Assembly: GCA_900318115.1 (NCBI GenBank)
Contig: ONJJ01000014.1
Location: forward strand, 1 to 64,000
Direction: 5' to 3'
From: an uncultured Prevotellaceae bacterium
GTDB taxonomy: Bacteria; Bacteroidota; Bacteroidia; Bacteroidales; Bacteroidaceae
Length of the DNA stretch: 64,000 bases
Shown: piece by piece, positions 25,255 through 28,024 of the stretch
Layout of the letters: each line of letters starts with the position of its first letter
Position numbering within the stretch: the stretch's first letter is position 1
Notes under the pieces: model-generated
Seen by the model: only the letters and a program-made list of their open reading frames with translations
What the model was told of the DNA's origin: nothing
Databases searched by the model: none
Made by a program: the position numbers and the translations under genes

Positions 25255-26271
25255 TTAGTCCTCCTTTCTTCTTTTTATTACCATTCTGTCCCAAAGACGA
25301 CGGTAGTGCTTGTCGCCTTCTTTGAGATAGAACCGGATTCCTCCCTTTTCATAGGTGGCATCCTTTTCTACCAAATCTTTAATTGGTTTCCCCAATTGAA
25401 TACTTGACCCAATAATCTCAAATTGCTTGGGATTGTATTTCTGCATAAACGTAATAGGAACTCCCATCTCTCCATAATAGTCGTATGGTATGTCAGCTAC
25501 GGTAGGAACTTCTATAGCATCATAGTTTACGTATTTGGGATACTTTTCAGGATTCTCTTCATAGGACGCCGTTAGTATTAGCTCCTTAACCTTTGGGTCA
25601 ACCTGCATATTGGTGTACCACATACAGCTTCGTGGAGTGTTGTGCTGTTTGGGTAAGGTTGTACCATCAGGACGATTGAAACCGCTTAGATGATAATGAT
25701 AACCAATGCGTATGTTTCCTTCTTGGAAATGTTTGATGATGCTTTTCTCTGTAGGTGCCGTCTGGGGTCCAATAACCAGGAATTCCTTGCTGTTCTCTAT
25801 CAGCAAGTCGATGAACTCATCAAACTGGCTAAATGGCGGATTTGTGATGATGACATCGTAATAGCTGTAATCTATGTCCTGAAAGCGTACGCCCTCGTTC
25901 TTTTGTGGGTTGTAGCCACTTACGCTGATTGAGCGGAAGCCCCATTCCTCTGCCTGATTCAGCAGATAGTACACGAACTGGCATTTCACCTTGTCCATTC
26001 GTTTCTGTATCTTCTCTCGCGTCTTGGCTATATCAATGTTCTTGATGGTTCCTTCTGAGCCAAACAAGTCACGCCCCAACACATATCCCTCTTCTTTATA
26101 GACAATCTCCTCATTGTAGCTCTCATCCCAATCACACGGACACAGAATCCGCTTACCTCGCAACTGAGGGAGATACAGGCTCACTTCATCTGCGATGTCT
26201 TGGAACAAGGTGTAGTACTCGTCATCTTTCTTTTTCTTGCTGCCTTGCAGCCTGGATGTGCGTGCAACCAT
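25255..26271 (-). CDS. Adenine-specific DNA methyltransferase, EcoRI-methylase family
   Basis: A 338-residue protein with the catalytic motif DVIITNPPFSQFDEF near residue 140 and an N-terminal RTSRLQGSKKKKDDEYYTLFQDI segment seen in EcoRI_methylase-family proteins. The putative AdoMet site is RILCPCDWDES. It would make N6-methyladenine in a specific sequence, protecting host DNA. The partner HNH nuclease gene is directly downstream with a 3-bp gap, and no EcoRI-like endonuclease is present. Upstream lies an unusual structured leader (26272-26585). The target sequence cannot be predicted. Confidence 0.88.
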   Translation of the reverse strand: MVARTSRLQGSKKKKDDEYYTLFQDIADEVSLYLPQLRGKRILCPCDWDESYNEEIVYKEEGYVLGRDLFGSEGTIKNIDIAKTREKIQKRMDKVKCQFVYYLLNQAEEWGFRSISVSGYNPQKNEGVRFQDIDYSYYDVIITNPPFSQFDEFIDLLIENSKEFLVIGPQTAPTEKSIIKHFQEGNIRIGYHYHLSGFNRPDGTTLPKQHNTPRSCMWYTNMQVDPKVKELILTASYEENPEKYPKYVNYDAIEVPTVADIPYDYYGEMGVPITFMQKYNPKQFEIIGSSIQLGKPIKDLVEKDATYEKGGIRFYLKEGDKHYRRLWDRMVIKRRKED

Positions 26272-26585
26272 AGGGTTAGTTCATTTTTGGTTATACGTTC
26301 TGCTTTTCGATAAGAACGTACAGCTAACCCAAACACCCCATTGTTCTATGCGAACAAAAAACGTGGACAATCTTCCTCGTCCACGTCCTTGGGTGTTTGG
26401 CCTAACCCGTACCAACAGACAATTCAGATATCCACGTTAGTGGACACCTGCTTTCTTCCGTTGGTTCGTCTATCAGTGGCCAAACTTCAAGGACGTCCTT
26501 TGAATAAGCAAATGTTCTTATATTAAAATGAATAGGGCACCTCCGCTGAGTTTGCATAGGCATTATGGCCTAATTCGTGCCTTTT
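26272..26585 (-). promoter_or_regulatory. Highly structured leader of the methylase-nuclease operon
   Basis: About 310 bp without a gene, packed with inverted repeats. They are GGGTTAG/CTAACCC (26273-26279, 26324-26330) enclosing TACGTTCT/AGAACGTA (26294-26301, 26313-26320), and CCAAACACCC/GGGTGTTTGG (26329-26338, 26391-26400) enclosing TTGTTC/GAACAA and ACGTGGAC/GTCCACGT (26361-26368, 26379-26386). TCCAC/GTGGA (26431-26444), AAGGAC/GTCCTT (26489-26500) and GGCAC/GTGCC (26536-26581) enclosing TAGGC/GCCTA follow. A second CTAACCC at 26402-26408 competes with the first for GGGTTAG, which abuts the methylase ATG. A minus-strand -7 box at 26592 would transcribe it as a 5' leader. Confidence 0.7.
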
Positions 26586-26591
26586 CGGGGG

Positions 26592-26599
26592 CAAAGATA
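26592..26599 (-). promoter_or_regulatory. -7 box of the methylase operon
   Basis: Minus-strand TATCTTTG, about 320 bp upstream of the methylase start; implies a long untranslated leader. -33 element weak. Confidence 0.45.
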
Positions 26600-26661
26600 A
26601 CAACAATTTTTTATATGCCGTCATAAAAGTAGTAAAAAGTGGGAGTAATAGGGCAAAATTA

Positions 26662-26693
26662 TTTGCAGAATCAGAGAAATGTTTGTATTTTTG
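26662..26693 (+). promoter_or_regulatory. Promoter of the 430-residue unknown gene
   Basis: TTTG (26662-26665), 20-bp spacer, TATTTTTG (26686-26693), 38 bp upstream of the ATG. Confidence 0.75.
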
Positions 26694-26731
26694 TAGCGTT
26701 TTAAACATATAAACTGAAAATTATTACAATA

Positions 26732-28024
26732 ATGAATGAAAGTTTATTAGACAAGATTGCTCAAGGCTGCAATACTTTCTGCTTATGTAACGAATGGCGC
26801 AATGGTAAAGCCGGTTCCATTTCCGATATTGAAGGGAAGTGCATCTTCCGTTTTTATGAACTCATAAGTAACGAAAATGGAGATCAAAGATATGCTGGCG
26901 AACGCGACGACAGCGCTCCAGTCGTGGCTGTTGGCATTGTTGCTGTTTGGCTGCAGCACAGAAAGAACAATGAAATTTTTTCCAGATTGTTCTTAACCAA
27001 ACCGAATACTTCAATGTCTATCAGAGAACAATTCGATTCCTATACTAAAATCAGATATGATGGATTCAAGGCTGAGCATAAGGATGATCCTGACGCTTGG
27101 AAATTAGACTGGGATCGTGAGTTCTTCGGAAAGTATATTATTCCACATGAAATGAGGCTTAATGTACTTTCAGAAGCCTTGTTCGAGTATGTTACAGAAT
27201 CAGACGTACAGTTGTTGCAACGTCTAATGGAGAACTATATCAACTACTTGAAAATGCGTCGGGAAGAATTGGGCTACTACGTATGCGATGAATTAAAGGT
27301 CATGCGCGCAATCGAGTCTAAAGATGAATTTCAGTTAGAAGATTTAGAAAACTTCGAAATACGCACTATATTAGACAATCTTGAAAGTGAAGGATATGTG
27401 AAAGTCGCCTGGTGCGAAGGCGATAGTTCATACGATGATGTCAGATTACTGGATAAAGGAAGGGCGTACTTAAAGCAGTTGGAATCCCAATTGAGGCCCA
27501 GCTCGAGGAACAAGGAGAGAGTTGCAGAATCTTTTCCAAATCAACTTTGGGACAACAGTCAGGATACTGTCTTTGACAGCCGGATAGACCCAAAGAAGTT
27601 GTTTTATGAACTGAAAGATATGTACCGGCCTAATCTGAAGGATTATCGTCCACGATTCTTTGTCTATTATACCGTGCTAAGTTATTTGGAATGGGTCGTG
27701 GGTTCTCAGGCAGATTTCCTCAGATGGGCAAATCTGCATTGGGGCTGTGGATGGAACGACAAGAATGCCCAGCACTTCAAATTCACGTCAATCAAAAAAG
27801 AACTTCGGGACGAACCTCTGAAAAACTGGTATGCAGGCACTGTACCAGGCAGCAATATAGGCTTAGAGTATCGTAAACTGGCCGAGGATGTCATCGGTCT
27901 CTTAACAGAAACCGTGGGCAAAGAATGGCTACAGGACAAGCCATTGTTCTATTGTGAAGGAGTGAAGCCGGAGAATTATATTAATAAGGGTGACCGCAAA
28001 CATCCTTTCCCAAGCACAGTTTGA
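26732..28024 (+). CDS. Uncharacterised 430-residue protein of the methylase locus
   Basis: I do not recognise this protein. The N-terminal ~150 residues look alpha/beta (GCNTFCLCNEWRNGKAGSISDIEG, PVVAVGIVAVWL). The middle part resembles a winged helix (ELKVMRAIESKDEFQLEDLENFEIRTILDNLESEGYVKVAWCEGDSSYDDVRLLDKGRAYL, about 190-250), suggesting DNA binding. The C-terminal third is rich in aromatic residues (YYTVLSYLEWVVGSQADFLRWANLHWGCGWND). There is no signal peptide or membrane helix. It is transcribed divergently from the methylase-HNH operon from its own strong promoter and shares the low G+C content, so it may belong to the same acquired unit as a regulator or effector. That is inference. 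Confidence 0.75.
   Translation: MNESLLDKIAQGCNTFCLCNEWRNGKAGSISDIEGKCIFRFYELISNENGDQRYAGERDDSAPVVAVGIVAVWLQHRKNNEIFSRLFLTKPNTSMSIREQFDSYTKIRYDGFKAEHKDDPDAWKLDWDREFFGKYIIPHEMRLNVLSEALFEYVTESDVQLLQRLMENYINYLKMRREELGYYVCDELKVMRAIESKDEFQLEDLENFEIRTILDNLESEGYVKVAWCEGDSSYDDVRLLDKGRAYLKQLESQLRPSSRNKERVAESFPNQLWDNSQDTVFDSRIDPKKLFYELKDMYRPNLKDYRPRFFVYYTVLSYLEWVVGSQADFLRWANLHWGCGWNDKNAQHFKFTSIKKELRDEPLKNWYAGTVPGSNIGLEYRKLAEDVIGLLTETVGKEWLQDKPLFYCEGVKPENYINKGDRKHPFPSTV

Follow-up and report, generated by a model that had tools for sequence, protein, structure and literature searches.

What do so many inverted repeats do in front of a restriction-type operon? The window, i.e. the whole stretch of 64,000 nucleotides analysed here, carries on its minus strand a methylase gene followed by a nuclease gene, and the 310-nt gap 5' of this operon (minus strand, 26590 to 26272) is its leader. 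We suggest that this leader is one of many cis-acting leader RNAs of Bacteroidota which together form a large class, apparently not described so far. From sequence comparison and folding models, it is probable that this class is new and phylum-wide, and that the version found before restriction genes acts as a two-state switch.

The window locus and its leader

The original prediction described the gap as rich in repeats, and this agrees with the sequence: 18 inverted-repeat pairs of at least 7 nt lie within 26150-26700. The perfect 10-bp pair CCAAACACCC/GGGTGTTTGG is found where it had been placed, at 26329-26338 with 26391-26400, and GGGTTAG (26273-26279) and both of its CTAACCC counterparts (26324-26330 and 26402-26408) have exactly the positions claimed. 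The minus strand folds with a minimum free energy of -115.6 kcal/mol (z -7.84) and the plus strand with a z of -6.82; for both, none of 100 dinucleotide shuffles is equally stable. The strand of relevance for the leader is the minus strand, i.e. that of the methylase operon.

The features of the locus are collected in Table 1, including a TAnnTTTG box which we take to be the Bacteroidota promoter -7 motif. The methylase also matches PADLOC MTase_II (E 2.6e-54) and belongs to the EcoRI_methylase family. The predicted nuclease beside it matches PADLOC REase_II (E 5.6e-29), and a homologue lies directly behind the methylase in 13 of 13 named orthologous loci. The same nuclease matches PADLOC NsnA (E 2.9e-30) slightly better than REase_II. 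A divergent 430-aa gene (26732-28024, plus strand) has no Pfam match; a 50% identical homologue adjoins another gene led by the 5' module M1, of HSDR_N type (L005), and the 430-aa gene may therefore be a defence partner.

Table 1. Coordinates of genes, promoter box and leader elements in the window, with the basis of each assignment.
Feature	Position	Strand	Basis
EcoRI-type adenine DNA methylase, 338 aa	25255..26271	-	PF13651 E 4.4e-58
GmrSD_N + HNH nuclease (predicted), 365 aa	24154..25251	-	PF03235 E 1.3e-17, PF01844 E 1.2e-13
Putative Bacteroidota-type promoter -7 box TATCTTTG (TAnnTTTG)	26592..26599	-	read from sequence
5' module M1 (GGCAC..hairpin..CUCAGCGGAGGUGCC)	26509..26591	-	model R1 match E 2.7e-15 (window is a training row)
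Leader-RNA core, model R2	26375..26507	-	82.6 bits, E 2.0e-15; window is one of 34 training rows
P1 5' strand, pairs 26383-26391	26488..26496	-	inverted repeat I7; covariation; permutation 0/2000
P1 3' strand	26383..26391	-	as P1 5' strand
P2 5' strand, pairs 26395-26402	26478..26485	-	inverted repeat I14; covariation; permutation 0/2000
P2 3' strand	26395..26402	-	as P2 5' strand
P3 (26457-26468 with 26408-26419), encloses P4	26408..26468	-	inverted repeat I5, 83% complementary
P4 hairpin	26425..26450	-	covariation; permutation 0/2000
P0 5' strand, alternative partner of 26445-26459	26502..26514	-	permutation 0/2000 in two sets
P0 3' strand, overlapping P4 5' side	26445..26459	-	as P0 5' strand
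PX: P4 3' strand, alternative partner of tail 26360-26367	26431..26438	-	I12; permutation 0/2000, two sets
P5 hairpin, then U tract; P5 3' strand is the PX tail	26361..26386	-	inverted repeat I13
Z strand, alternative partner of P2/P1 3' strand (26391-26400)	26329..26338	-	I4; permutation 0/2000 in 34 leaders, weak in 19 (20/2000)
P7, hairpin near start codon	26294..26320	-	part of I1; both-side changes, columns 213/262 and 219/256
CUAACCC adjoining start codon, can pair GGGUUAG 26324-26330 or 26402-26408	26273..26279	-	I16, I17

At its gathering threshold Rfam 15 finds only tRNA in the window and nothing in the leader, and a permissive Rfam scan of 26100-26800 gives two matches only, both with E 2.5 and neither relevant. 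No similar DNA was found in the phages and plasmids searched, and no relatives of the methylase were confirmed among viral contigs.

A palindromic mobile element, such as a MITE, had been offered as one explanation of the gap. An architecture that is present several times per genome would fit it: besides the window leader, the same genome holds five more matches to the core covariance model described below, six in all. However, the copies keep the architecture and differ in sequence, the proposed search of the genome for further copies gave a single copy at the DNA level, and the copies sit behind a promoter box and before genes. Dispersed near-identical copies were not found, and the mobile element is therefore rejected as extremely improbable.

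Relatives of the leader in Bacteroidota

The orthologue set (n=15) consists of the window, 13 named loci (L021-L033) and one locus from the genus search (L002), while L003 was left out as it lies on the same contig as L024. The named loci are assigned to Prevotella, Prevotellaceae, Bacteroidaceae or Bacteroidales and come mostly from ruminants; by these names, the genus of the window appears to be Prevotella-like. The core is strongly conserved, with 67 consensus pairs of which 13 have changed on both sides, among them pairs of P3 at columns 56-65 of the orthologue alignment (A1). M1 is replaced by other 5' modules in most orthologues; L024 has a short M1-like form (by eye). Two kinds of replacement can be seen by eye: a hairpin with a GGAGAAAT(-like) loop and a varying stem in the place of M1 (L021-L023, L025, L026, L002), and another 5' module type, GGCGATAC..GTATCTGCC-like (L027-L032).

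Of the EcoRI-type methylase loci of the genus, 30 were fetched: 15 have an R2 leader (R2 being the model of the core, see below), ten a related variant, assigned by eye only, and five none. A larger variant at such loci, missed by R2, has an ATGCAT..GCGTGRTGCAT-like hairpin plus an extra inserted stem (L319, L324, L328, L333, L335, L337, L339, L340, L342, L345).

The 5' module of the window also matched other genomes, upstream of different genes. With R1, the covariance model of M1, 49 of the 139 genus genomes have matches, 117 in all (E<=0.01), and 100 loci were fetched out of 109 listed at E<=0.001. The 270 nt behind M1 fold with z <= -4 in 83 of the 99 loci with enough DNA (20 shuffles each), the lowest being -12.5. 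M1 also occurs without the core, since z is only -2.5 to 0.3 where a gene or a repeat array follows it immediately (L112, L116, L148, L144, L072); it may be an independent module of 5'UTRs. At L112 and L116, and by sequence also at L154, a lone M1, with no long leader, precedes a PD-(D/E)XK gene (PF12784), 5 nt away from its start codon. On the minus strand of one contig (G107:C1; L020/L068/L072) two M1 copies are about 700 bp apart, and the second precedes an array of 47-bp repeats and spacers, by eye a CRISPR array.

According to Pfam and PADLOC matches of representatives, the genes behind M1 loci include an EcoRI-type methylase with a GmrSD_N-HNH nuclease, MmeI type IIG enzymes, N6 and D12 methylases, a type III-like methylase with ResIII, MutH with a cytosine methylase, and SNF2/PLD helicases. 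One M1-type leader is followed by a protein with a PAPS-reductase domain, which we read as DndC-like, and other M1-type copies sit before secreted-protein-like genes. As to the suggested role in expressing the methylase before the nuclease, related leaders also head operons that start with an SNF2-type helicase, a type IIG fusion or HSDR_N, and thus the leader is not tied to a methylase-first order.

Long leaders before different genes, 34 in number, align as one architecture, in which the strand sequences are system-specific, and R2, the covariance model of the core, was built from this alignment (A4). R2 matches are found in 120 of 139 genomes of the genus of the window (E<=0.01), in at least 281 of 399 genomes sampled from the family, and in at least 36 of 395 sampled from the phylum (E<=0.001), 3 of these 36 being from the window's own family; the family and phylum counts are lower bounds, as filters were strict and few candidates were scored per genome. 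The specificity of R2 is judged from E-values and from 96 sources (622 kb) with 81 matches and never two per source; in a separate check of 32 sources one gave a second match, antisense and within the same element. Restriction-type genes are over-represented among the best R2 matches, because R2 was built from loci found through M1; its training rows are mostly restriction-gene leaders. In 36 related loci from family and phylum, Rfam 15 finds no family at the gathering threshold, tRNA apart.

The position of the core is constrained on both sides. Out of 80 fetched loci, those with enough upstream DNA were counted, and 66 of 75 have TAnnTTTG at 50-160 nt upstream of the core, against 4 of 75 on the other strand and 3 of 74 further upstream. 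The start codon follows 50-125 nt downstream of the core in 104 of 127 copies, with a median of 89. This placement between promoter box and start codon favours a cis-acting leader. An RNA that acts in trans, with the core excised and bound to enzymes or other targets in the manner of an RNA antitoxin, would agree with the strong stand-alone fold and the system-specific strands; however, the core lies about 90 nt before start codons and on the coding strand, and unrelated genes are preceded by the same class, which makes it very unlikely.

Alternative pairings, the Z arm and a candidate switch

Covarying stems, which the original prediction had proposed to look for, are present in the orthologues, in the 34 leaders and in 19 leaders outside the family. 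Among the 34 leaders, 94.2% of the cells are paired and 198 cells are changed on both sides, compared with 48.9 in shuffles; covariation is 0.623, against 0.280 when shuffled and at most 0.173 in slid controls. Both-side changes are seen in 7 of 7 pairs of P1, 8 of 8 of P2 and 5 of 9 of P4, and in 0 of 6 in the outermost helix (columns 1-6). The second set of 19 phylum-level leaders, found by R2 but aligned with MAFFT without the model, recovers P1, P2 and P4, with 91.4% paired, 53 both-side cells versus 18.4 shuffled, and a covariation of 0.492 versus 0.228 shuffled and at most 0.149 in slid controls. This set is a separate replication, although its loci came through R2.

Partner-swap permutations extend the analysis to pairings that exclude each other. 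In the 34 leaders, P1, P2, P4, PX, Z and P0 each give 0 of 2000 (control pair 1996 of 2000), and in the 19 leaders P1, P2, P4, PX and P0 each give 0 of 2000 (control 1235 of 2000); these figures, like the Mann-Whitney value below, are not independent counts, because the loci are related. The P0 pairing in the window has one mismatch (by eye). Because crossings occur between PX and Z and between P0 and P1, we do not claim a single "fold 2". Enforcing PX or P0 in the window gives a fold that is 24.5 or 9.9 kcal/mol, respectively, less stable than the P1/P2 fold, in nested folding, which cannot score pseudoknots.

Two further pairings were tried and discarded. A direct pairing of the 5' leader with the tail is unsupported, as 1996 (34 leaders) and 1235 (19 leaders) of 2000 permutations are at least as low. 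The Z pairing is weak in other families (20 of 2000), without energy gain; their 19 leaders have no Z arm (gain 4.0 versus 3.6 shuffled). In other Bacteroidota families (L218-L236), the last hairpin before the start often has a GGAACT-type loop, complementary to an AGTTCC-type tail. For this contact 2 of 2000 permutations are at least as low in the 19 leaders, and the own partner is better than the row mean in 13 of 19, for a region picked after looking; it may be a pseudoknot that replaces Z in these families.

Within the genus, the Z arm goes with the type of gene. Among the best 150 R2 matches listed, 130 have downstream DNA: 93 stand before R-M-like genes, 24 before secreted/membrane-type genes, 10 before other genes and 3 before no ORF. 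Here, "R-M-like" means that the first or the second ORF has a blastp match (E<=1e-10) to one of 30 Pfam-supported representatives, which include two below the Pfam cut-off (L272, L291) as well as defence-type SNF2/PLD and ResIII helicases, and "secreted/membrane-type" was assigned by a regular expression instead of a signal-peptide predictor, and at least one was missed (G026:C46, placed with the others). For Z, 127 of the best 150 listed matches are compared (20 are without fetched downstream DNA and 3 are too short), and an arm is present when its energy gain exceeds the shuffled mean by more than 2 sd. By this measure 88 of 92 R-M-like leaders have it, compared with 5 of 23 of the secreted/membrane type and 8 of 12 others (Mann-Whitney p 3.5e-11, on loci that are not independent). 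The association is not built into the model, as R2 ends before Z.

The window's own genome contains both kinds of leader, one with the arm (that of the window) and others without (C46, C47). The arms of the window leader gain 20 and 24 kcal/mol (up and down), while the down arm of two leaders of membrane-type genes gains 6, versus 5 when shuffled. Over the 15 orthologues, the P2/P1 3' strand gains about 24 kcal/mol with either of its partners, the median difference between the two being 3.1. In the window, the Z fold (-118.1 kcal/mol) and the P1/P2 fold (-115.6) are 2.5 kcal/mol apart. The idea of a long leader with competing folds is thus backed by the permutation tests together with near-equal fold energies.

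A constitutive structured leader, serving mRNA stability or insulation and with the alternative pairings as a by-product, would also account for the members from other families, which have the core but no Z arm and of which several precede unrelated secreted-protein-like genes. This explanation is unlikely, given that locus-specific pairing is seen for P0 and PX in the 34 as well as in the 19 leaders, and for Z in the 34, that the two partners of the P2/P1 3' strand are so closely balanced in the orthologues, and that the Z arm is specific to a gene class. Z switching cannot be the function of the whole class, because the 19 RNAs of other families are without the arm.

For the restriction-gene leaders we suggest the following two-state switch. 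The conserved core consists of P1-P2-P3-P4, and the alternative pairings P0 and PX take P4 apart. Z, a downstream arm added in the R-M-like leaders of the genus, competes with P1/P2 for one strand, which results in two folds of nearly equal stability, and would thereby gate expression. In this clade, the OFF state would be the P1/P2 fold, which hides the CUAACCC beside the start codon (predicted unpaired at 0.04), and the ON state the Z fold, which partly frees it (0.45), so that the output would most likely be translation initiation. This read-out is weak and not general, since the Z fold leaves the ATG triplet open to a lesser degree (0.59) than the P1/P2 fold does (0.77), and a CTAACC-like partner of GGGTTAG on the start-codon side, present in 8 of 15 orthologues, is not found in 7. 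The core or the exchangeable 5' module would sense a ligand, a protein or the state of the cell, and sensing would delay or condition the production of the restriction enzyme.

Alternatively, the output could be transcription attenuation, if P5 and its U tract form an intrinsic terminator whose formation is decided by PX or P1. In the window and seven other orthologues four or more U come immediately after GUCCACGU, and the P5 3' strand has a conserved alternative partner in PX. However, the U tract is interrupted in 7 of 15 orthologues (CCUUUAUG, UCUUUGUG, UUCUGUGU), a decay that also weakens a terminator as the sole function. A simple terminator scanner did not call P5, whose loop of 10 nt exceeds the scanner limit of 8, and it reported 2 sites resembling terminators, where shuffles have 0.9 (sd 1.0). 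Attenuation thus appears rather doubtful, and from the folding models translation initiation is the likelier output than attenuation at P5.

By computation, the leaders are shown to be conserved with compensatory changes, to keep their position and strand, to have alternative pairings and balanced energies and, in the genus, to combine the arm with restriction-type genes. A broader reading, which we hold tentatively and at somewhat less than even chances, is that Bacteroidota have a phylum-wide, undescribed leader class which unrelated immune systems have adopted and furnished with a bistable arm, a single RNA mechanism then conditioning many restriction systems. The adopters would then be type I, II, IIG and III R-M systems, SNF2-helicase systems and perhaps DndC-like loci, and the conditioning could, if this is true, occur for example upon infection or on entry into a new host.

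Comparison with known regulatory systems

Riboswitches are defined by direct binding of a small ligand to a conserved aptamer. Judged by sequence, the leaders of the window genus appear to have a riboswitch-type architecture, i.e. a conserved core joined to mutually exclusive helices. Like riboswitches and attenuating leaders, they are 5' leaders with such helices near the gene start. However, the known leaders serve one pathway, whereas the window class precedes both restriction-type and secreted-protein-type genes, and its leaders are without an Rfam 15 family in the window and the 36 related loci.

The RNAs of type III toxin-antitoxin systems (ToxI) are tandem repeats of a pseudoknotted unit, and the RNA neutralises the toxin protein. 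Like the window leader, they are structured and lie immediately 5' of an operon with a potentially harmful nuclease. In contrast, the repeat listing of 26150-26700 shows only short scattered direct repeats and no tandem array in the window leader, and the window class is not limited to one protein family. Such toxin-antitoxin RNAs are mentioned in a passage of PMC8040213, and the candidate list of that paper might contain fragments of the RNA described here. In the open-licence literature searched, supplements being outside its scope, this RNA is not described. Term matches in the reviews PMC3874152 and PMC12707154 show no control of R-M by a riboswitch or leader structure, the one match to "leader" in the former concerning SymE.

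It is a long-standing question how R-M systems entering a cell spare the unmethylated DNA of the host, and the known answers include regulation by the methylase. They also include, according to the papers cited, controller proteins (PMC3695507, PMC8053105) and antisense RNA (PMC3874152). The C-protein controlled type II systems use a regulator gene and answer the same need, i.e. conditional or delayed expression after entry, whereas the ORF list of the window shows, between leader and methylase, none that reaches 80 aa. The EcoRI and Eco29kI systems are, in the part of PMC3874152 that treats them, controlled by antisense RNA that is transcribed from reverse promoters within the operon. A type II R-M operon controlled at the level of RNA would thus be common to both, predicted in the case of the window; however, the EcoRI and Eco29kI RNA is antisense, while that of the window is a cis leader with internal competing folds. 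The question can be tested directly, since the strands in competition are known to the single base, and one genome holds leaders with and without the arm. If true, a cis RNA switch common to unrelated R-M types would be a new answer, beside controller proteins and antisense RNA, to the problem of cutting the host's own DNA.
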